28,017 bases of DNA from a virus: IMG/VR virus record IMGVR_UViG_3300045051_000890, positions 1-28,017 of that record. One strand, 5' to 3'. This document shows, piece by piece, positions 8,765 through 28,017 of the stretch; within the stretch, counting starts at the first letter, position 1; the number at the start of each line of letters is the position of its first letter. Below the pieces are notes generated by a model. The model was not told the origin of the DNA. It saw only the letters and a list, made by a program, of their open reading frames with translations, and made no database searches. The position numbers and the translations under genes were made by a program.

Positions 8765-10449
8765 GACCGCCTCCCGCCGCGCGCGCGCACGCCGAGCCCG
8801 AGCCGGCGGATCGCGCCCGGCGCCGGGTCCACGCTCGCCCCGCTCTGGCCGGGGAGGAGGAGCACGGGCTGGACCTTGCGCTCCTTCGCGCGGAGCCCGA
8901 GGTCGAGTCGGGTCACGCGCGGTCCACGCGCGTCGATCGGCCACGCGCGCGCGGCCTCGTCCCAGGCGCGCTGCCCGTCGAGCAGCGCCCGCTGGAGCAC
9001 GTACGGGATGTCGTCCGTCGCGGCGCCGGTGAGCGCACCATTCAGCACCCGGACGATCTCCTGCTCCACGTCCCGCCCGCCCGTGAGGCAGAGCGCGGCG
9101 ATGTAGCTGCCGTCGTGGAGGCAGTCCACATGCCAGTCGGAGTAGGTCTCCCACTCCGAGCCGCGGTCCATCTCGCCGAACGCCGCGAACGCCGGGAAGA
9201 TCTGCCCCTCGTCGTCCTCGCCCACGTCCTCGAGCCAGATCCGGCCGGCCGAGTCGCCCGTGAGGAGCACCTCGCGCCCGCTGCCGAGGATCACCGCGAG
9301 CGCCGCGGTCACGTCGAACCTGTACGGGAGGTCGCGCCGGTCCGCCGAGTCGAACAGATACCAGTGCGAAGCCTTCGTCCAGGTCTTCGCCATGTAGTCG
9401 TAGATCAGGCAGAGCTGGTTCCCGGGAAGGCCCTTCACCGGCACCCACAGCCGGTACTCCGTCGTCTGCCGGAGGTGAACCGCCACGGCGAGGTGCGCCG
9501 AGTCCCAATCGACGAGCTCGTCCATCGTGCGCCGGAGCGCGTTCGACACCGGGACGACCGACTGGATCCCGTCGAAGATGAGGACGTTCTTCTCGCTCAG
9601 GTAGATCAGCGCGTTCCCGACGTTCACGACGCTGCGCGGGGCGATGCAGCCGTGCTGGCGCGCGACCCCGCGCGCGTACGGCGCCACCGAGTCCTCGTCC
9701 ACCATCGCGATGCCGCTGCGCCCGAGCACGGCGAGCCGGTCGTGGATGACGGAGACCGCCTCCACGCTGTCGCCCTCGTCGTTCGAGAGGTCGAAGTTGG
9801 TGCGCGAGGGCCAGACGTTCGCGCCGCCGATGGGCGCCTCGACCGGGATGTTGTCCACGGCCCACTTGTTCTCGGAGAGGCCGATGAGCCGCGGCGAGTC
9901 CGGAGCGCCGGCGGCGACCACGCGATCGCGCCAGATGGCGAGCCGGGACGCGCGCGGCGGCGCCCCCAGGTACGCCTCGTTCTGGACGCCGGCGTCCTCG
10001 CCGGCCATCGCCTCGAGCACGGACAGATCCACGCCGTCGTAGTCGAGGAGCAGCCCGCCCGGCTCGGCGATGATCGTGTGCCCGTCCATCGGCACGGCCG
10101 CCGTCGAGAGCTCCGGCTCGACGCTCGCGGCCTCGGGCGGCATCGCCACGTTCGCCACCGCGCCGGTGCGCCAGCTCACCGTCCCGAGCCCGCCTGCGAC
10201 CGCGCCGAACGGGTCCAGGTAGGCGAGGACCGAGCGCGCCCCGGAGGGCGCGACGTGCTCGTGGAGCCCCGCCACCCGCCGCCCGGACGCATCGGTCGCG
10301 ACAACCGCGCGCCCAGGGCGACGCGAGATCCGCCCGCCCCGGAAGACGACGTTCAGCCCGTCCCGGATCTTCGTCGGGCCGAGCGCGCCGGTCTCGTCGA
10401 TTCCGTCCCAGGGACCGAGATCCGGGTGGATGGCAGCGGGGTTCTCCAC
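8761..10449 (-). CDS. Tail nozzle / stabilisation-type beta-propeller protein (562 aa)
   Basis: GTG start at 10449 with GGGAGG four to five bases upstream. The N-terminus has RDGLNVVFRGGRISRRPG at 29-46, the 'N...r.GrI.rRpG' entry typical of phage stabilisation (P22 gp10-like) and T7 gp12-like nozzle proteins. Successive blade-like repeats follow (GVDLSVLEAMAGE, RDRVVAAGAPDSPRLIGLS, IHDRLAVLGRSGIAMVD, ALIYLSEKNVLIFDG, QLCLIYDYMAKTWTKAS, VLLTGDSAGRIWLEDV), as in a beta-propeller. The C-terminal 95 residues add a VLNGALTG motif at about 468 resembling that of the three small neighbours. Length fits the family. It should form the hexameric tip of the short tail below the adaptor, and is the best single marker that this is a podovirus-type virion. 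Confidence 0.75.
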   Translation of the reverse strand: MENPAAIHPDLGPWDGIDETGALGPTKIRDGLNVVFRGGRISRRPGRAVVATDASGRRVAGLHEHVAPSGARSVLAYLDPFGAVAGGLGTVSWRTGAVANVAMPPEAASVEPELSTAAVPMDGHTIIAEPGGLLLDYDGVDLSVLEAMAGEDAGVQNEAYLGAPPRASRLAIWRDRVVAAGAPDSPRLIGLSENKWAVDNIPVEAPIGGANVWPSRTNFDLSNDEGDSVEAVSVIHDRLAVLGRSGIAMVDEDSVAPYARGVARQHGCIAPRSVVNVGNALIYLSEKNVLIFDGIQSVVPVSNALRRTMDELVDWDSAHLAVAVHLRQTTEYRLWVPVKGLPGNQLCLIYDYMAKTWTKASHWYLFDSADRRDLPYRFDVTAALAVILGSGREVLLTGDSAGRIWLEDVGEDDEGQIFPAFAAFGEMDRGSEWETYSDWHVDCLHDGSYIAALCLTGGRDVEQEIVRVLNGALTGAATDDIPYVLQRALLDGQRAWDEAARAWPIDARGPRVTRLDLGLRAKERKVQPVLLLPGQSGASVDPAPGAIRRLGLGVRARGGRRS

Positions 10450-12034: not shown

Positions 12035-12502
12035 CTACAGGTCCGGGAGGACGTGGACCGCGCACTCGACGGACGGGGGCGTCCCGTACGCCGCGTCGTG
12101 CGTGATGAGGACGTGCAGGGTGTCGCCCGGGAGCACCCGCTGGACGATCTCCGAGGCGAGCAGCGTCGGCTTCGTGCAGCCGGCAGGCGTCGCGATCGCC
12201 CCGTTCCCCGTCTTCGTGTCCACCGCCGCGCCAGCCCCGGCCGCGCGGGTGAGCAGCGCGGTTGCGTCGGTCACCGCGAGCGGCGCGATGCCGGCCCGGG
12301 TCCGGACGAGCTGCGCGGTGAAGTTCGCGCCCGCGCCCGCGCCCGCGTCCCGCTGGCAGACGACGAACCGCTTGATCTTGCCGCGCTCCGTGACGACGCC
12401 GAGCTCGATCTTCGTGGTCGTGACCGCCGCGCCGTGCGACCCCTCGTACCGGACGTGCCGCAGCGCCGACCTGCCCGCCACCTCGCGAACGTTGAGACCC
12501 AT
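12035..12502 (-). CDS. Putative capsid decoration / small head protein (155 aa)
   Basis: ATG at 12502 with GGAG seven bases upstream; an upstream in-frame ATG at 12595 lies in the terminator hairpin region and lacks a ribosome site. The protein looks beta-rich (TTTKIELGVVTERGKIKRF, then RVLPGDTLHVLITHDAA and SVECAVHVLPDL). It has a long Ala/Gly/Thr-rich centre and a C-terminal strand pattern close to that of the beta-rich trio (GDTL.V...). The gene directly after a major capsid gene often encodes a decoration or stabilising protein. No sequence motif proves this here. Confidence 0.55.
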   Translation of the reverse strand: MGLNVREVAGRSALRHVRYEGSHGAAVTTTKIELGVVTERGKIKRFVVCQRDAGAGAGANFTAQLVRTRAGIAPLAVTDATALLTRAAGAGAAVDTKTGNGAIATPAGCTKPTLLASEIVQRVLPGDTLHVLITHDAAYGTPPSVECAVHVLPDL

Positions 12503-12615: not shown

Positions 12616-13950
12616 CTACCAGCCGACCGGGAGCGACGCCGGCGTGGCGAGGCCGTAGATGCGGCAGATCGCGTTCCGCATCACCGTGCCCCAATTCCCC
12701 GCCCAGCCCCAGAAGCCGACCTGCGCGTGCTTCTGGCCTGTCGAGTCCCGCCACGGGGTGAGGTACTGCCCGTCGGCCTGCTCGAGCAGCTCGATCCCGT
12801 AGAGCTCGATGTACCGGAGCACCTTCGAGTCGAAGACGTTCAGCTCGTCGACCGGGAGGTCGTCGTCCATCTTGATGCGGAGCTTCTTCCCGTGGACGTT
12901 GACGATCACGTCCTCCTCGTCGGCGCCGAGCCGGGTGGGCTCCGCGTCCACGAACCGCTTGTCCTTGTAGGAGCCCTCGTCCCCGTAGATGAGGCCGTGC
13001 CCCTGGTTCCCGTGGCACCAGATCGTGTTGAACATCGTGTTCGACCAGCGCCGGTACAGCATGGCGATCGCGCTCACGATCGCGGGCGAGACCGGGGCGC
13101 CGGCGGCGTCACGGATGATCCCCTTCCAGGCGGAGACCGTGGTCGCGCTGATGTCGAGGTAGCCGGTGGCGGGGTCGAGCGTGCCGTCATCCGCCATGAG
13201 TCGGAGACCCGCGGGCTCGTACGACAGGCGGGCAGCGCCGCTGACGTACGCGTTCTTCTTCCGGATGATCACGTCGCCGAGCGAGATCACGCCGGCCGGG
13301 ATGACGGCGCCCGTGCTCATGCCGAGCGTGAACGAGGTCTCGTCGATCACCGTGATGCACTTGAACCACGGCGAGGCCGTCTGCCCGTTCGCGTCGAGCG
13401 CGACGCCGTTGCGCTGGGTGATGGCCGCGGGGCCGTCCCAGATGTCGAGGATCATCCCGTCCGCGAGGAACTTGGTCGTGTTGACCGAGCACGTCGCGGT
13501 CGCGCCGCCGCCGGCCACCGCCGCCGTCAGTGTGGCGAGGATGCCGCGCCCGTCGCCCACCGCGACCCGGTTGAGGTCGCGCTTGAAGATCTCCTGGGAG
13601 GTCTCCTGGACGAGGGTCATGCCCTCGGCGAACGCGTGCTTGTCGCCCTTCGAGGCCACCATGAGGTCGTGGCTGATCTCGAACGGGATGTGGATGTACT
13701 TCGGGGTGATCGTCCCGTTGTACACCCGCTCCGTCTGCCCGGCCTCGAAGTAGTCGTCGGCGCTGCGGGCCGCGACCATCTGGTTGAACGCCAGGTGGGT
13801 CGCGAACTCGTACTGCTTGCCCTTGCCGTCGAACTTCTTCGCGGTGAACGCCTTCAGGAAGAACGCCTGGCTCTTGACCCCGCTGTTCAGCGAGGGCTCG
13901 TACACGGTCTTGAGCAGCTCGCCCAGTACCGCCCTGGTGTTGATCGTCAT
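12616..13950 (-). CDS. Major capsid protein (444 aa)
   Basis: ATG at 13950 with GGGAG upstream. The N-terminus (ELLKTVYEPSLNSGVKSQ, then FFLKAFTAKKFDGKGKQYEF) has the opening and 'G.....' strand style of HK97-fold capsid proteins. It continues with an N-arm/E-loop-like region (AARSADDYFEAGQTERVYN, ITPKYIHIPFEISHDLMVA) and a spine-helix-like stretch (GMTLVQETSQEIFKRDLNR). The C-terminal half has long beta and loop regions (SAWKGIIRDAAGAPVSP, YRRWSNTMFNTIWCHGNQ) and ends NAICRIYGLATPASLPVGW. Position (after a scaffold-like gene and portal) and length match. A strong hairpin follows the stop. The fold is inferred from pattern and context, not from an alignment. Confidence 0.8.
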   Translation of the reverse strand: MTINTRAVLGELLKTVYEPSLNSGVKSQAFFLKAFTAKKFDGKGKQYEFATHLAFNQMVAARSADDYFEAGQTERVYNGTITPKYIHIPFEISHDLMVASKGDKHAFAEGMTLVQETSQEIFKRDLNRVAVGDGRGILATLTAAVAGGGATATCSVNTTKFLADGMILDIWDGPAAITQRNGVALDANGQTASPWFKCITVIDETSFTLGMSTGAVIPAGVISLGDVIIRKKNAYVSGAARLSYEPAGLRLMADDGTLDPATGYLDISATTVSAWKGIIRDAAGAPVSPAIVSAIAMLYRRWSNTMFNTIWCHGNQGHGLIYGDEGSYKDKRFVDAEPTRLGADEEDVIVNVHGKKLRIKMDDDLPVDELNVFDSKVLRYIELYGIELLEQADGQYLTPWRDSTGQKHAQVGFWGWAGNWGTVMRNAICRIYGLATPASLPVGW

Positions 13951-13988: not shown

Positions 13989-14906
13989 CTACCGCGCGGC
14001 CTTCTCCAGGAACTCGAGCGCGCGCTTCGCCGTTCCCTCGGGCGAGTGGTCCACCTTCTGCGGCGGCTTCCTGCCGGGGGTCGGAGTCGAACCGGGGACG
14101 ATCGGAGTCTCCGTCGCGTCCCGCTTCTTCTCCTCGACGTACGCCTGGTTGAACTTCCCCACCCCCTCCTCGAGCTGCTTCACGAGGGTGTCGCAGATGC
14201 GATCGAGACCGATGCCGGCCTTCATCGCCTGGGGGGTGGACCAGACAGCGGCGGCGAGCTCCTCGAGCACGGGGAAGTGGCTGAACCACTTCTCGTGCTT
14301 CTGCTTCGCGGCCTGGAGGTCCAGGTGCGCGCGCTGGAGAACTTCGCGGCTCTTGGTCTCGCGCTGGAACTGCGCCTTCTGCTCCTCGAACCGACGGGAG
14401 ACCTCCTCCTCCGTCATGTACTTCGGCGCCGGCTTCTCCTTCTTCACGCCGAGCGACTCGAGGAACGCCTCTGCGATCCCGCCCTTGATGGCCGCGGGGT
14501 CGAACTTGGAGGAGAGCTCCCGGAGCTGTCCCAGCTCCTCGAGCACGGGGGCGAACTCGGTGAGGAGCGACTGCCGCGCCTCCTTGAGTGCCGTCTCGCG
14601 CGCCCGCTTCTCCGCGCGCGTCTCCCACGCCGACCGCATGGCCTTCACGCGCTCGTGCGGGATGCCCCTGCCCTCGCGGTCCTCGCGGATCGCGACTTCC
14701 AGCTCGTCCTCGGCCCCGCCGTCGTCCGCCTCGTGCGAAGGCGTCTCGCGCGGCTCGGTCCCGAACATGCGGGGGAACGGGTGTGCGTCACCGGCAGGCG
14801 CGGCCGGGCTTCTCACGCCAGGGGCAGGCGCGGCGCCGCCTCCGGAGCCGCCCGCGGGGGCGTCCTCGGGTGCGGAAACCATGCGCTTCGCTGCGAACAG
14901 GTACAT
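13989..14906 (-). CDS. Probable scaffolding protein (305 aa)
   Basis: ATG at 14906 with GAGGGAG upstream. The first 55 residues are Pro/Ala/Gly-rich and look disordered. Residues about 65-290 are almost wholly charged helix (RAEKRARETALKEARQSLL, EEEVSRRFEEQKAQFQRE, HLDLQAAKQKHEKWFSHF). A Pro-rich linker precedes a basic C-terminal helix (TAKRALEFLEKAAR) of the kind that touches capsid subunits. This helical, low-complexity composition between portal and major capsid is typical of scaffolding proteins. No protease motif is seen, so capsid maturation by cleavage is not indicated here. Confidence 0.7.
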   Translation of the reverse strand: MYLFAAKRMVSAPEDAPAGGSGGGAAPAPGVRSPAAPAGDAHPFPRMFGTEPRETPSHEADDGGAEDELEVAIREDREGRGIPHERVKAMRSAWETRAEKRARETALKEARQSLLTEFAPVLEELGQLRELSSKFDPAAIKGGIAEAFLESLGVKKEKPAPKYMTEEEVSRRFEEQKAQFQRETKSREVLQRAHLDLQAAKQKHEKWFSHFPVLEELAAAVWSTPQAMKAGIGLDRICDTLVKQLEEGVGKFNQAYVEEKKRDATETPIVPGSTPTPGRKPPQKVDHSPEGTAKRALEFLEKAAR

Positions 14907-17751: not shown

Positions 17752-19718
17752 CGGCGCGTGCCCCTTCCCCACAGTGAACGTCCACGGATCCGGCGGGCCT
17801 CGTGCCGCTCCACCGCCCGCTTCATGGACAGGTCCATCGGCATCGGCTGGAGAACCTCGTTCGGATCGACCTTCGGCGGAGGGGGCGGCTTTCGCTTCGT
17901 GAGCGCGGCGTTGACGTGAACCCCGAGCGCCATCGCGGCCATGAGGATCAGGTCGTCGTGCTTCCCGACCATCGCGCCCGGCTTCGGGTTGTCGGGCATC
18001 TTCATGCCCTGGGCGACGGTCGGCCACACGAACGTCCGCGCCTGGTCGAAGAACGTCGCGTCGTGAACCCCGAGCAGCGGCGCGCGCGTCTCCGCCTCGA
18101 GCAGCTTGAGCGCGTACATCCGGAGCTGGTAGCTCTGCACCCACCCCGGCTTCCCGGTGGGCTGCTCACCCGGCTTCGTCACGTCCCGGTGGTACCAGAG
18201 CTTCGGGTACATGATCCGGAGGAGCTCCTGGAGCACCGCGCCGCCGTGGTTGTTCGCCTCGACGACGAGCAGCGCCTTGTCGAAGAACCACGCGAGCAGC
18301 GCGGCGACGTGCGCGATCTCGCGCGTGGAGAGCGACGTGCTCCGGTAGATCGCGGCGAACTCGAAGGCGTTCCGCGCGAGAACGCCGATCGCGTGCTCGT
18401 CTCGCCCGGTGATGCCCTCCGCCGGGTCGAGCACCACGACGTACTCCTCGCTCGCGTCGTACGGCGACCAGACCTGGAGCTCGCCGTCGGGGTCCGGCTC
18501 GATCTTCGGCTTCACCGGGGTGAGCCGCCCCGGCCCGCGGTCGTCGAGCGGCGGCCCCTCGTTCACTACCCGGGCGCGGTAGAGCGGCGCGCGCGCCCCC
18601 TTCACCGGGTCCGCCGCCCAGGCGGTGACCTTCCCGGGGATGAAGAAGTTGCGGCTCGAGGAGAGCCAGGCGTCCTCCTCGCAGGCGGGGTACTCCTGGC
18701 GGAAGATCTCGTACCGCGAGCGGCCCGGCTTGTAGCAGCGCGGGCTCGCGATGACCTGCCGGCGCCACGCCAGCTGCTCGAACGAGAGCTTGTACTTCGC
18801 CGCGTACGCCTGCTCGTCCTCCTCGTCCGTGCGGACCCACGTCCACCCGGCACGCTCCTCCGAGGAGACCGGGATCGCGTTGTCCGGGTCGATCCACCAG
18901 GGCAGGAAGATCGGCGTCCACTCGTTCCGGCCGGCCCGCGCCTCCGCCCAGGTGTCCCGGAAGAAGCCCACCGCGCCGTTCGCCGACGACTCGAGCACCG
19001 CCACCGTTCCCGGAGCGTTCGAGAGCGCGATGCCCATGCCCTGCCACGGGGGCGGGTCCTCCGGCCAGTAGGCGACCTCGGAGCCGTGGATGAAGTGCTT
19101 CGTCCCGCCGCGGCCGGGCTCCTTCGACTCGGCGCTCGTCACGGCGAGCACGCTCTGGAGCCCCATGTGCTCGGCACGCGACGCCTTGTCGGGGTTGCCG
19201 AACTTGAGCTCGCGCTTCGACGACGCCTCCGTCTCAGGCCGGACGCCGAACCGGCGGCGCTCGTCGTGGTCGTAGAACGTCTTCACCCCGCGCTCGAAGA
19301 TCTCCTCGGTGAGCTCGTTCTTGTCGGCGCACGTCAGTCCCTCCACGTACGCGCGCGTGCTCGTGTACCAGTACGCGAGCGCCTGGCAGAGCGACGAGAT
19401 CTTCTGCCGGCGGCTCTTGAGCACGATAATCCGGACCGGCAGGCCGCACCGGAGCCGCCACCGCACCTTCCGGACCACGATCCGCTGGCCCACCGTCAGC
19501 TTGAACGGGACGAGCTTCCCGCCGTCGATGTGCCGGACCCAGAGGCACTCCTCGATGAACGCCTCCGGGTCGAAGGCGTAGCGGTCGAGCCGCTCGAGGA
19601 TGTCCCGGTCGTCCGCGGGCGCGAACTCCGACGGCGCGCCGGAGTCCTTCGCCCGGCCGCGCGCGCCCTTCCGCCGCTTCGAGAGCTGGCGCCAGCGCCG
19701 CGTCGAAGGCTCGGTCAT
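17748..19718 (-). CDS. terL: Terminase large subunit, ATPase-nuclease (656 aa)
   Basis: ATG at 19718 overlaps the TGA of the gene before (ATGA). Domain order is an N-terminal ATPase, then an RNase H-like nuclease. The Walker A-like strand-loop is IIVLKSRRQKISSLCQA at about 97-113. The Walker B-like HGSEVAYW lies at 211-218 and the coupling motif VLESSANGAVGFF at 241-253. Nuclease acids are in VVVLDPAEG (Asp431), LLVVEANNHGG (Glu487) and KHDDLILMAAMAL (Asp588/589). TerL cuts concatemeric DNA and pumps it through the portal. The usual 'K.RQ.G.ST' is here KSRRQKISS, with Lys where Gly is expected. All other motifs are intact, so the enzyme is probably active. Confidence 0.88.
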   Translation of the reverse strand: MTEPSTRRWRQLSKRRKGARGRAKDSGAPSEFAPADDRDILERLDRYAFDPEAFIEECLWVRHIDGGKLVPFKLTVGQRIVVRKVRWRLRCGLPVRIIVLKSRRQKISSLCQALAYWYTSTRAYVEGLTCADKNELTEEIFERGVKTFYDHDERRRFGVRPETEASSKRELKFGNPDKASRAEHMGLQSVLAVTSAESKEPGRGGTKHFIHGSEVAYWPEDPPPWQGMGIALSNAPGTVAVLESSANGAVGFFRDTWAEARAGRNEWTPIFLPWWIDPDNAIPVSSEERAGWTWVRTDEEDEQAYAAKYKLSFEQLAWRRQVIASPRCYKPGRSRYEIFRQEYPACEEDAWLSSSRNFFIPGKVTAWAADPVKGARAPLYRARVVNEGPPLDDRGPGRLTPVKPKIEPDPDGELQVWSPYDASEEYVVVLDPAEGITGRDEHAIGVLARNAFEFAAIYRSTSLSTREIAHVAALLAWFFDKALLVVEANNHGGAVLQELLRIMYPKLWYHRDVTKPGEQPTGKPGWVQSYQLRMYALKLLEAETRAPLLGVHDATFFDQARTFVWPTVAQGMKMPDNPKPGAMVGKHDDLILMAAMALGVHVNAALTKRKPPPPPKVDPNEVLQPMPMDLSMKRAVERHEARRIRGRSLWGRGTRR

Positions 19719-20047
19719 CGGTGCGCCGCCAGCCGCGGACCGCGCCCGCCGGGCACCGGTGGACGGGGCGACTTGTTCACCTTCTCCGGGGGGAGCTTCC
19801 GCTCGTAGAGCCGGTAGTACATCCGGTGACGCGCGCGCACCGCCTCCCGAACGTCCTCCTCCCGGGCCTCCTCCTCGTCGAGCTTCACCCGCTCCTCGAT
19901 CGCCGCCGGCCCCGCAAGGCAGCCGCCCCCGCACCCCACGCCGCGCCGCGCCTGCTCCGCCACGCACGCGTCCCGCGCCATCCCGTCCGACATCCGCTTC
20001 GGGCAGCGCACCATCCCGCCCACCACCAACGGGAGCGGCGGCTTCAC
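19715..20047 (-). CDS. Small Cys-containing protein next to terL (110 aa)
   Basis: GTG at 20047 overlaps the upstream TGA (GTGA); an internal ATG at codon 12 is an alternative. Cysteines at 15, 28, 39 and 43 (MVRCPKRMSDGMARDACVA, GVGCGGGCLAG) could bind a metal. The second half is helical and charged (EERVKLDEEEAREEDVREA, then RARHRMYYRLYERKLPPEK). No family recognised. The tight overlap with terL suggests a packaging-linked or regulatory accessory protein. Confidence 0.6.
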   Translation of the reverse strand: MKPPLPLVVGGMVRCPKRMSDGMARDACVAEQARRGVGCGGGCLAGPAAIEERVKLDEEEAREEDVREAVRARHRMYYRLYERKLPPEKVNKSPRPPVPGGRGPRLAAHR

Positions 20048-23635: not shown

Positions 23636-24129
23636 AGCAGGCGATCCTGACGGTGCGCGTGCTCCCCGGCGAGGATGCCCGGCTGTACGCGATGGAAGCG
23701 AAGCTCGGCGAGGGGTTCGATTCCCCGCCAGCCCTTGAATCACCCCCGGGAATGGACCCGGGGTCACGTAGGACGGAGGGTCACATGGCACACGGGAGAA
23801 TCCCCAGCAGGATCGACGGCCCCACGGAGATCCCGGTCGGCAAGATCGGGTTCCTGACCCGGGCGATGAGCACGAACAATGGCGGCGAGACGTGGTCGCT
23901 CTCCGCCTTCCCGCTGCACACGAACCAGAGCCACATGCCCAGGCTGTACGGCTGGTGCGGGGAGACGAACAACGTGTCCCGCTACGCGGAGGGGCTAGCC
24001 CTGGTGGAGTCGCAGAACCCGTACAACGATCGGCTGCGGATTCGGCCGGTCACCGACCCCGCGGAGATCCGCGCGGCGCTCGAGGCGCTCGACTACCCCG
24101 AGCTGGCCGACGAGATCGAGGGAGGGTAG
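23632..24129 (+). CDS. Unknown protein with two in-frame starts (165 or 114 aa)
   Basis: Two starts each have a good ribosome site in the same frame: ATG 23632 (GGAGG, ATGA overlap with the upstream gene) and ATG 23785 (GGAGGG, four-base spacer). From 23632 the product opens MKQAILTVRVLPGEDARLYA; from 23785 it opens MAHGRIPSRIDGPTEIPVGK. The shared part contains KIGFLTRAMSTNNGGETWSL, HMPRLYGWCGETNNVSRYAE and a C-terminal helix ALEALDYPELADEIEGG. Codons between about 23718 and 23784 (CTT, GAA, TCA, GGA, TCA, CGT, AGG) are unlike the GC-ending codons around them and coincide with the T-arm-like RNA element. I therefore think the 114-aa form is the main product and the first start makes a short upstream peptide or fused variant. 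Confidence 0.6.
   Translation: MKQAILTVRVLPGEDARLYAMEAKLGEGFDSPPALESPPGMDPGSRRTEGHMAHGRIPSRIDGPTEIPVGKIGFLTRAMSTNNGGETWSLSAFPLHTNQSHMPRLYGWCGETNNVSRYAEGLALVESQNPYNDRLRIRPVTDPAEIRAALEALDYPELADEIEGG
23712..23763 (+). ncRNA. T-arm-like hairpin plus second hairpin before a gene start (element A)
   Basis: GGGG-TTCGATT-CCCC (23712-23726) is a T-arm-like hairpin. Then CCCCGGG-AATGGA-CCCGGGG (23744-23763) is a second perfect 7-bp stem, followed by TCAC, GGAGGG and ATG at 23785. GGCTG at 23681-23685 could pair with CAGCC at 23729-23733 as an acceptor-like stem. Layout and sequence match element B at 27308-27380. Confidence 0.55.
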
Positions 24130-25730: not shown

Positions 25731-26549
25731 ATGGCGATCCAGACGTTGAGGCCGGGCATCATGGTGTCGCTCAAGACGAGCGTGGACGGCGGCGTGCGGT
25801 ACGCCCGCCGGGAGATCGACCCCGAGCACATGACCGAGCAGGGGACGGTCGAGGCGAAGTGGGAGACCGCGAAGACGATCGAGAACCCGGAGGAGTTCAA
25901 GACCGCCACACAGGTCCGGGCAAAGTGCCGGGCGCTGATCACCGGGATCTGCGTCCGCTCGGACTTCGCGCTGCTCTGCCCGAACGAGAGGGAGGCGCAG
26001 CTCGAGGAGAAGATCAAGGAGGCCCGGCAGTTCGCGGAGGTGTTCAACGCGACGGCGACGCGCTGCCAGGTGGGCGTCTACGTGCTCCGGGGCCGCGTGG
26101 CGCAGGACGACGCGGAGGCGATGAAGGCGATCGGCTCGGAGGTCCGGGGCCTGCTCGACGCGATGGAGGCCGGGATCAAGGCCACGAACGTCGAGCAGAT
26201 TCGCGAGGCAGCGGCGAAGGCGAAGGACCTGGGGCGGATGCTGAACGCCGACGCTCAGGCGAAGGTGAACGAGGCCGTCCAGGCCGCCCGGGACATCGCC
26301 CGGGAGGTCGTGAAGCGGGTGCAGAAGCAGGGCGAGGACGCGAGCGCCGTGCTGGCGACCGTGAAGCTCGACTCGATCAACCGGGCGCGGTTCACGTTCC
26401 TGGACATGGACACGCCTGCGGTCCAGGTCGAGGCGCTCCCCGCGACGCCGCGCTCCGTGGAGGCCGCTCCGGTCATCGAGGCCGAGCACGTCCCGGAGAA
26501 GCTCCCGTCCGTGACGGTCACCATCCCGGCTCGCCGGATCGAGGTCTGA
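25731..26549 (+). CDS. Helical partner protein of the AAA ATPase (272 aa)
   Basis: ATG at 25731 with AGGAG about eight bases upstream, 25 bases after the ATPase gene. The N-terminal beta-type segment (GIMVSLKTSVDGGVRYARRE, then WETAKTIENPEEFKTATQ) leads to a Cys-bearing helix (RAKCRALITGICVRSDF, ALLCPNEREAQLEEKIKE). A long helical body follows, about residues 80-215 (ARQFAEVFNATATRCQVGVY, VEQIREAAAKAKDLGRML, ARDIAREVVKRVQKQGED), then a Pro/Val-rich tail. I recall similar proteins beside ATPase genes in other phages but know no function. The tight order suggests the two products act together, for example as substrate or scaffold for the ATPase. Confidence 0.75.
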   Translation: MAIQTLRPGIMVSLKTSVDGGVRYARREIDPEHMTEQGTVEAKWETAKTIENPEEFKTATQVRAKCRALITGICVRSDFALLCPNEREAQLEEKIKEARQFAEVFNATATRCQVGVYVLRGRVAQDDAEAMKAIGSEVRGLLDAMEAGIKATNVEQIREAAAKAKDLGRMLNADAQAKVNEAVQAARDIAREVVKRVQKQGEDASAVLATVKLDSINRARFTFLDMDTPAVQVEALPATPRSVEAAPVIEAEHVPEKLPSVTVTIPARRIEV

Positions 26550-26550
26550 C

Positions 26551-26760
26551 ATGGCCCTGCACTTCTTGCAGCCGAAGAACCCCGCCGCTCTCCCGCACCT
26601 GACCTGCGGGGACGAGCCGGACGGCTCGGACGAGTCGTGCCCGGGGACGGCGTTCGTCGTTAAGCGGACGGCGATGGGCACCATCCTCCTGCTCTGCGCG
26701 GACTGCGACGAGCAGTACGAGTTCGAGCAGATCGAGCAGGCTCCCACGGTGAAGGAGTAG
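26551..26760 (+). CDS. Small Cys-containing protein, possible zinc ribbon (69 aa)
   Basis: ATG at 26551 follows the upstream stop by one base, with GAGG ten bases before it. Cysteines at 19 and 30 (HLTCGDEPDG, DESCPGTAF) and at 49 and 52 (LLLCADCDEQYEF) could form a four-Cys zinc ribbon with beta strands FVVKRTAMGTILLLC between. Acidic C-terminus. Function unknown; part of the tight plus-strand operon. Confidence 0.65.
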   Translation: MALHFLQPKNPAALPHLTCGDEPDGSDESCPGTAFVVKRTAMGTILLLCADCDEQYEFEQIEQAPTVKE

Positions 26761-26762
26761 CC

Positions 26763-27101
26763 ATGGCCTGCGAGGCGTACAGGAAGCCGAAGGAGACCCT
26801 GGAGCAGCGCCGGGACCGGATCGCGAAGTCCCTGGGGCTGCTCGAGGAGCGCATCCGGCAGGGGCAGGTCCGCGTGGTCGTCGGCCGTGACGGCAGCGTG
26901 ACTTTCGCCGGGTGGAAGGTGGAGGACCGCGAGGACGTGGCGGATCTCTGCGCGTACCGGAAGCTCACGGCGAAGGGGAGCATCGCGCTCCGCTCCGCGC
27001 TCGCCAGGGCGGAGATCGCGGCGGGCCGGACGGTGGACAAGCAGGTCATCGGGTCGGGGCTGCACAGCCACGACGGCGGCAAGACCTGGGGGAGGCACTA
27101 G
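26763..27101 (+). CDS. Small phage protein ending HSHDGG.TW (112 aa)
   Basis: ATG at 26763, two bases after the upstream stop, with AAGGAG inside its end. An N-terminal helix (TLEQRRDRIAKSLGLLEER) leads to a beta segment (GQVRVVVGRDGSVTFAGWK), CAYRKLTAKGSIALRSALAR, and a C-terminal AEIAAGRTVDKQV plus GLHSHDGGKTWGRH. I recall the 'CAyR.L....s..lr.A.a.AE..aGr' and final 'HSHDGG.tW' pattern in uncharacterised phage proteins. No enzymatic role can be given. Confidence 0.7.
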   Translation: MACEAYRKPKETLEQRRDRIAKSLGLLEERIRQGQVRVVVGRDGSVTFAGWKVEDREDVADLCAYRKLTAKGSIALRSALARAEIAAGRTVDKQVIGSGLHSHDGGKTWGRH

Positions 27102-27103
27102 CC

Positions 27104-27301
27104 ATGCCCCGTGAAACCACCCCGGGAGTCACGGTGGAGCGGTATCTCGGCGACGGCGTGTACGTCGGGATCGACCCGCACGGCTACCTGGCCCTGATGA
27201 CCAAGGACGGGGTCACGAACCTGATCTTCCTGGAGCCGGAGGTGTACGCGGAGCTGGTCCGGTACGCCGAGGAGCTCAAGGCGAAGGCGCAGCAGAAGTA
27301 A
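27104..27301 (+). CDS. Small phage protein (65 aa)
   Basis: ATG at 27104, two bases after the preceding stop, with GGAGG nine bases upstream. The product has RYLGDGVYVGIDPHGYLALM and LIFLEPEVYAELVRYAEELK, the 'LgDGVYv..D..g...L.T.dG....I.LEPeV...L..Ya' pattern of a small, widespread phage protein of unknown function. It ends KAKAQQK. Followed by element B. Confidence 0.7.
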   Translation: MPRETTPGVTVERYLGDGVYVGIDPHGYLALMTKDGVTNLIFLEPEVYAELVRYAEELKAKAQQK

Positions 27302-27307
27302 CAGGCC

Positions 27308-27380
27308 GGGCGCATCGGCGCTTCACGCGGGGTTCGACTCCCCGGCGCCCAAAGCAGCACCCCGGGGAATCGTCTCCGGG
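27308..27380 (+). ncRNA. Minimal tRNA-like hairpin plus second hairpin (element B)
   Basis: GGGCGC (27308-27313) pairs with GCGCCC (27345-27350), and inside it CGGGG-TTCGACT-CCCCG (27328-27344) stacks directly on that stem, like an acceptor stem plus T-arm. Only 14 bases replace the D and anticodon arms. A second stem-loop (ACCC, bulged C, GGGGA / TCTCC-GGGT; about 27358-27381) follows, then TCACC, AGGAGG and ATG at 27401. It occupies the whole 99-base gap. Confidence 0.6.
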
Positions 27381-27400
27381 TCACCAGGAGGGTTGAACCG

Positions 27401-27721
27401 ATGGCGACGAAGACGAAGACGACGACCAAGGCGACGAACCACAACCCCGCGGTCATCGTCCGCACGTACAGCGCGGGCGTCCACTACGGGAAGCTCGCGG
27501 CGCAGAGCGCGGACGGCAAGCGCGTGACGCTCACGGGGGCGCGGCGGATCTGGAGCTGGAAGGGCGCGAACACGCTGCACGAGATCGCGCTGCGCGGCGT
27601 GGGCGCGGGGTCGAGGGTGTCGGAGCGGGTCGAGTCGATCGACCTGACCGAGGCGATCGAGATCCTGCGGTGCTCGCCGGCCGGCGAGACCGCAATGGAG
27701 GCGGCGTCGTGGCCGGCGTAG
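27401..27721 (+). CDS. DUF6948-like phage protein (106 aa)
   Basis: ATG at 27401 with AGGAGGG about eight bases upstream. After a Thr/Lys-rich start it reads AVIVRTYSAGVHYGKLAA, RVTLTGARRIWSWKGANTLH, EIALRGVGAGSRVSE and IDLTEAIEILRCSPAGETAM. This is the 'vRTysAGVh.G.l...G..v.l..ARriW.W.GA..l...a..G' pattern of the phage family I know as DUF6948, whose function is unknown. The length fits. Its 3' end overlaps the start of the Gly-repeat gene, so the two are translationally linked. Confidence 0.75.
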   Translation: MATKTKTTTKATNHNPAVIVRTYSAGVHYGKLAAQSADGKRVTLTGARRIWSWKGANTLHEIALRGVGAGSRVSERVESIDLTEAIEILRCSPAGETAMEAASWPA

Positions 27722-28017
27722 ATCACGACGGCTACGGCTCCGGCGACGGCTCCGGCTACGGCTACGGCTCCGGCGACGGCTCCGGCTACGGCGACGGCTC
27801 CGGCTACGGCTACGGCTCCGGCTACGGCTCCGGCTCCGGCTACGGCTACGGCTACGGCTACGGCTCCGGCTCCGGCTACGGCTACGGCTACGGCTACGGC
27901 TCCGGCGACGGCTCCGGCTACGGCTACGGCTCCGGCTACGGCTCCGGCGACGGCTCCGGCTACGGCTACGGCTCCGGCTACGGCTCCGGCTCCGGCTACG
28001 GCTCCGGCTACGGCTAC
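27709..28017 (+). CDS. (Tyr/Ser/Asp)-Gly repeat protein, cut by window end
   Basis: GTG at 27709 with GGAGG and a seven-base spacer, overlapping the end of the preceding gene by 13 bases. After VAGVDHD all 96 remaining codons alternate GGC (Gly) with TAC (Tyr), TCC (Ser) or GAC (Asp), for example GYGSGDGSGYGYGSGDGSGY. The frame stays open to base 28017, so the gene continues. Only four codons are used. Such Tyr-Gly-Ser low-complexity chains resemble phase-separating domains (FUS-like), and I recall similar repeat genes after DUF6948-type genes in other phages; the function is unknown. It may carry a folded C-terminal part beyond the window. Confidence 0.7.
   Translation, partial: MAGVDHDGYGSGDGSGYGYGSGDGSGYGDGSGYGYGSGYGSGSGYGYGYGYGSGSGYGYGYGYGSGDGSGYGYGSGYGSGDGSGYGYGSGYGSGSGYGSGYGY
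27730..28017 (+). repeat. Six-base-period coding repeat (GGCTAC / GGCTCC / GGCGAC)
   Basis: Forty-eight consecutive six-base units, each GGC followed by TAC, TCC or GAC, run to the end of the window. Larger blocks recur, such as the SGDGSGYGYGSG-coding unit near 27750, 27900 and 27945. The array is open-ended and is a likely site of slippage or assembly breakage. Confidence 0.9.

Follow-up and report, generated by a model that had tools for sequence, protein, structure and literature searches.

We find that a compact tRNA-like RNA element lies between two viral genes at 27308-27350, on the + strand of the 28,017-nucleotide stretch of DNA analyzed here (the window), and that it belongs to a widespread and apparently undescribed class of such elements. 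Comparison of sequences across this class indicates a common structure, an elbow motif, a position between genes, an accompanying hairpin, and a recurrence in viruses of both bacteria and archaea. We consider it likely that these elements serve as minimal tRNA-like punctuation, offering sites for host RNase P and/or RNase Z in polycistronic viral mRNA; cleavage itself, the enzyme responsible, and any effect on mRNA stability or expression are what we infer. For the window, a minimal tRNA-like mRNA-processing site ahead of a DUF6948 gene is the best-supported reading and has found partial support.

In the window's element, copy A, an acceptor stem pairs GGGCGC (27308-27313) with GCGCCC (27345-27350), both strands being evident in the sequence and recovered by a structure scan. 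The T-arm, CGGGG-TTCGACT-CCCCG (27328-27344), is recovered by a covariance model as well, and the intervening 14-nt linker, ATCGGCGCTTCACG (27314-27327), begins with ATCGG, a D-loop-like A-N-N-G-G motif as in the class. On the 3' strand the T-stem runs into the acceptor without a gap, forming a helix of 6 + 5 = 11 bp that, together with the T-loop TTCGACT, agrees with the 11-12 bp coaxial helix and TTCRANY loop found across the class. The sequence bears out the original prediction of an acceptor stem and a perfect T-arm joined by 14 nt, with the anticodon arm missing. At this quality, the structure scan of the window yielded exactly one element, and 25 dinucleotide-shuffled versions yielded none. 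Neither ARAGORN nor Rfam calls a tRNA or another family at 27308-27350, a scan of the whole window against Rfam at lax thresholds returned no relevant match, and copy A lacks the D-arm, anticodon arm, and anticodon of a tRNA gene (RF00005), having only the 14-nt linker. Copy A is the best match of a covariance model (R1) that was built without the window sequence, at 21.1 bits and an E-value of 0.0022, the E-values of the class model being roughly calibrated. This score is modest, and copy A is atypical in its 6 + 5 split and in its linker, which falls outside the usual class range of 8-12 nt. The acceptor is followed by A-A in copy A and mostly by R-C, not CCA, in the class; an RNase Z-type cut would be predicted after 27350/27351.

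Folded alone, a 48-mer closes both the acceptor stem and the T-arm, and in a 99-nt context the T-arm has a competing fold in which it pairs with the downstream AGGAGGGTTGAACC. In both settings the folding energy is unexceptional (z about -1), and the case for copy A therefore rests on comparative evidence. The T-arm GGTTCGACTCCC (27328-27344) can in this way pair with the Shine-Dalgarno region GGAGGGTTGAACC (27387-27399), a pairing that might possibly act as a switch in copy A.

The upstream neighbor of copy A is a 65-aa gene of unknown function (phrog_11545; 27104-27301, + strand) whose stop codon is separated from the element by 6 nt. Downstream, the start codon of a gene at 27401-27721 on the same strand follows 50 nt 3' of it, and the DUF6948-like character predicted for this gene is confirmed by a match to PF22253 (E 1.5e-25). 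Between the two lie a hairpin, CCCGGGGA-ATCG-TCTCCGGG (27361-27380), and a Shine-Dalgarno sequence, AGGAGGG (27386-27392), read from the sequence, both on the + strand. The core of the predicted feature holds at 27308-27350 on the + strand, and its extent has been revised: the feature is larger than first described, continuing into the hairpin and the Shine-Dalgarno sequence. This order, in which an intergenic element on the coding strand comes just after a stop codon and is followed by hairpin, Shine-Dalgarno sequence, and start codon, is that of the class. Directly 3' of the DUF6948 gene is a long frame of Gly-Tyr/Ser/Asp repeats (GGCTACGGCTCC...; 27722-28017). An orthologous comparison by way of the DUF6948 gene and the upstream 65-aa gene was set aside with relatives too distant and the element absent; the distant DUF6948 relatives examined carry no tRNA-like element.

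The same virus carries a second, diverged tRNA-like element, copy B, at 23681-23733 on the + strand, with a GGCTG...CAGCC acceptor, a T-arm GGGG-TTCGATT-CCCC (23712-23726), and a 26-nt linker, longer than that of copy A; its form is also less regular. A hairpin at 23744-23763 (+ strand) is homologous to that at 27361-27380, and the copy B region (23681-23784) aligns with copy A over 68 nt, from the T-arm to the Shine-Dalgarno sequence, at 73.5% (E 4e-8). Within the shared hairpin, one pair has changed from G-C to C-G, which is compensatory, one from G-U to G-C, and one has been lost. Copy B and its hairpin precede an ATG at 23785, and an ORF finder would take the copy B region for an N-terminal extension of the downstream gene. 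An IMG/VR contig (L171) that overlaps 25788-28015 of the window at 100% identity extends the same virus, and we found no further copies in it.

Besides the same virus (L003), an exact 22-base search of IMG/VR matched a single contig, L002, in which a tRNA-like minihelix stands right after a stop codon and is followed by a hairpin and then a start codon. The arrangement is the same in Halorubrum tailed virus 27 (HRTV-27). When the L002 element and consensus sequences of the class served as BLAST queries, they matched 217 and 256 phage records, mainly from Streptomyces, Mycobacterium, Halorubrum, Gordonia, and Haloarcula; annotation at the match was absent from almost every one. Members of the class were found, in capped scans that give a lower bound on its breadth, in viruses of Streptomyces, Mycobacterium, Gordonia, Microbacterium, Riemerella, and haloarchaea. 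Copy number reaches 15 in one IMG/VR record and is 12 in Mycobacterium phage Cuke, seven in Streptomyces phage Amela, and five in HRTV-27; many viruses hold just one or two copies, the window among them. A Riemerella phage has two within 1.2 kb of its sequence, and HHTV-2 has one. Nor is the class universal, since two phages with T-arm matches, Bacillus phage Grass and Microbacterium phage MonChoix, yielded no element by structure scan or model. Matches in Vibrio phages were discarded as probable ordinary tRNA genes, one being an annotated tRNA-Gly.

That the stems are genuinely paired is indicated by two tests whose sites were chosen independently of pairing, in the first for the acceptor and in the second for both stems. 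Among 99 non-redundant virus sites picked by T-arm sequence alone, 59 combined a linker of 7-18 nt with an acceptor no shorter than 5 bp, including 30 with a linker of exactly 11 nt, against a mean of 11.5 and a maximum of 21 in 200 partner-swapped controls. When 218 sites were picked by their unpaired letters alone (A-N-N-G-G and TTCRANY at fixed spacing), 156 had all 11 pairs (5 + 6), with little in between and clear of the background. A third test, in agreement with these, took 47 distinct members: of their pair cells, 99.0% were standard (65% when shuffled, at most 55% when slid), both sides changed in 10 of the 11 pairs, and the covariation score was 0.833 against 0.175 when shuffled. These figures are not independent of pairing because only sites having 8 or more of the 11 pairs supplied the members, which were afterwards thinned by visual inspection. 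The original prediction had looked to related phages for compensatory changes, and these are seen across the class and, in the attached hairpin, between the window's two copies.

The class is further defined by helix length. A coaxial helix of 11-12 bp occurs in 118 of 134 members whatever the division between stems (5 + 6, 6 + 6, 6 + 5, 7 + 4, and 8 + 4 were seen), in a scan that required a score of at least 10.5 and so placed shorter helices outside the sample. A linker of 8-12 nt, found in 107 of the 134, is typical and not strictly defining, because the tail of the distribution reaches 23 nt. GG stands at offset 3 of the linker in 94 of the 134, and in 72 the linker also starts with A. The linker resembles a tRNA D-loop minus its stem. 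The linker motif furthermore appears to co-vary with the T-loop: GG occurs together with TTCGA in 129 of 140, and AG occurs with TGCGA in L024, in phage Predator, and in a variant Cuke gap. Few as they are, these cases suggest docking of the linker into the T-loop, the contact that forms the elbow of a tRNA. An additional arm at the position of the tRNA anticodon arm is present in some members in Cuke, so an arm at that position is dispensable. At 14525-14728 and 17970-18100, Cuke has larger members in which a long extra arm replaces the anticodon arm.

The placement of the elements relative to genes is similarly consistent. In five annotated genomes, all 27 elements were on the coding strand and 22 started between -6 and +13 nt from the upstream stop codon. 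Across the 134 non-redundant elements, an ORF stop lay within 20 nt for 102 (22% for random positions), a start with a ribosome-binding site followed at a median of 37.5 nt, and a strong fold was found 3' of the element in 43% as opposed to 11%. In Cuke, a hairpin of 6-9 bp and varying sequence separates every scanned element from the Shine-Dalgarno sequence.

The elements keep the features by which RNase P and RNase Z are known to recognize a substrate, namely the elbow, the coaxial acceptor/T helix, and the length of that helix, and they discard the parts of a tRNA that ribosomes and synthetases need. In a polycistronic viral transcript, the element would fold as the top half of a tRNA with a coaxial acceptor/T helix of 11-12 bp, and the linker GG would dock into the T-loop to form the elbow. 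Host RNase P and/or RNase Z might then mistake it for a pre-tRNA and cut on one or both sides, leaving the upstream message to end just after its own stop codon and the DUF6948 message to begin a few nucleotides before a stable hairpin. Such a 5' hairpin could shield the DUF6948 message from 5'-end-dependent decay while its ribosome-binding site stays free. The position between stop and start codons, with a hairpin at the would-be new 5' end, fits excision from or cutting of the mRNA, and the spread over bacterial and archaeal viruses fits the presence of both enzymes in bacteria and archaea alike. Copy A, with 11 bp from the T-loop to the acceptor end, agrees with the helix of about 12 bp expected of an RNase P or RNase Z substrate. 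Against this reading, most of the helices have 11 bp where a tRNA has one more, and efficient cleavage by RNase P is not assured given this length and the absence of CCA. The atypical form and modest score of copy A, the greater irregularity of copy B, the absence of the element from distant DUF6948 relatives, and the competing fold of copy A in the 99-nt context also count against it.

Alternatively, the elements could be tRNA-shaped translation or decay signals that stay uncleaved after the stop codon, blocking ribosomes or exonucleases or aiding re-initiation at the following gene, the hairpin acting as spacer. We think this unlikely. A fixed position between stop codon and Shine-Dalgarno sequence would suit such a signal, the upstream 3' end would gain protection from a stable 11-bp helix, and the T-arm of copy A could mask the ribosome-binding site; yet that pairing is not evident in copy B, and such a role leaves unexplained why the elbow (GG and T-loop) and the 11-12 bp distance are kept when the helix sequence is free. 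We consider it scarcely probable that the elements are transcription terminators or attenuators whose likeness to tRNA is incidental. Their GC-rich stems are intergenic and often have a second hairpin next to them, but no U-tract follows, the hairpin leads to a Shine-Dalgarno sequence and start codon, the genuine terminators of the same phages look different (Cuke 19676-19850), and termination makes no use of the conserved loop letters or of the GG in the linker.

The original prediction named a decayed tRNA gene as its main alternative, to which may be added an attP core, from a virus with a host tRNA gene as its integration site. In its favor, the T-arm together with the 3' strand of the acceptor resembles a tRNA 3' end, attP fragments of tRNA genes occur in viruses (PMC8707807, PMC7230728), and four T-arm matches (L012, L073, L094, and L099) retain a remnant of the anticodon arm, as attP would. 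However, only 5 of the 131 T-arm matches listed overlap an ARAGORN call, leaving 126 outside. An attP site would be present once, close to an integrase gene, and would be identical to the 3' end of a host tRNA, whereas genomes of this class carry many different copies, up to 15 per record, with acceptors that differ yet are internally compensated. The elements are also always intergenic on the coding strand and paired without decay, and we reject this alternative for the class on these grounds, holding it very improbable overall. That the many copies serve as a decoy or sponge, engaging the host's tRNA-binding enzymes or its tRNA-cutting defenses, strikes us as hardly more than a faint prospect: the numerous copies in some phages would fit, but the low copy number of many viruses would not, the anticodon arm that most tRNA-cutting defenses target is missing, and both the position and the downstream hairpin would go unexplained.

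The proposed cleavable punctuation of mRNA by tRNA-like elements has several counterparts. The mascRNA and menRNA of eukaryotic lncRNA ends are tRNA-like, with an acceptor and T-arm, and are released by RNase P and RNase Z; the viral elements differ in lying between viral genes. The mascRNA-menRNA model (RF01684) has weak full-length matches to L002 and L004, at 20.5-20.6 bits against a gathering score of 42.5, and an Rfam scan gave it no match to the window. In mitochondria, tRNA punctuation and, in plants, t-elements direct RNase P and RNase Z to cut at gene borders, generating mRNA ends (PMC11658184, citing Forner et al. 2007); t-elements are not aminoacylated and are homologues of whole organellar tRNA genes, with eight annotated in Arabidopsis. 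The viral elements are likewise tRNA-like structures at gene borders, but they are about 40 nt long, lack a D-stem and usually an anticodon arm, occur in virus genomes together with a hairpin before the ribosome-binding site, and are putative substrates of cleavage. RNase P sites are also known from bacterial operon mRNAs (the his operon) and from the phage M3 and P1/P7 C4 RNAs (reviewed in PMC11143913). These too are tRNA-like substrates in polycistronic or phage RNA, but as individual cases they have no shared element, covarying family, elbow motif, or fixed position. With tRNA (RF00005) and attP fragments, the viral elements have in common the acceptor, T-arm, and D-loop-like letters; unlike them, they have no anticodon arm or D-stem, are multicopy, and go uncalled by ARAGORN and Rfam. 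Intergenic repeats of HF2 carry promoters (PMC8707807), and the tRNA-like element is not described in that account of HF2.

The class is absent from Rfam 15: in four element-rich loci searched against it, no member reached a gathering score, while two true tRNAs did. We found no description of the class in open papers, subscription papers and preprints being outside the scope of the search. The class supplies a searchable RNA family missed by current annotation and by Rfam. More broadly, we lean toward the view that a common RNA punctuation code runs through the tailed viruses of bacteria and of archaea. In this code, miniature tRNA mimics, pared down to the determinants that RNase P and RNase Z recognize, would divide polycistronic early transcripts into hairpin-capped single-gene messages by way of these host enzymes, which occur in all domains of life. 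If so, many phages and archaeal viruses would use miniature tRNA mimics to set their mRNA ends, much as is known from mitochondria, and the class would amount to an extensive natural collection of minimal substrates for RNase P and RNase Z and help to explain the separate lifetimes of viral genes within one transcript.

Some matches fall in host genomes or in annotated viral features. In 38 genomes of a Kribbella genome's family, the model matched two. Each of these holds its matches in a cluster, which lies close to an integrase gene in one case and beside a RusA-type resolvase gene in the other. These matches suggest prophages, and such clusters in two of 38 genomes argue against a host housekeeping element. 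Elements also lie inside annotated genes of Cuke (12437-12476 and 12720-12759) and Amela (47865-47904), suggesting that the annotated starts of those genes are too far upstream. Finally, phage Hardygib1 has an annotated putative hammerhead ribozyme between two genes (9837-9902), possibly another mRNA-cutting device in the same virus.
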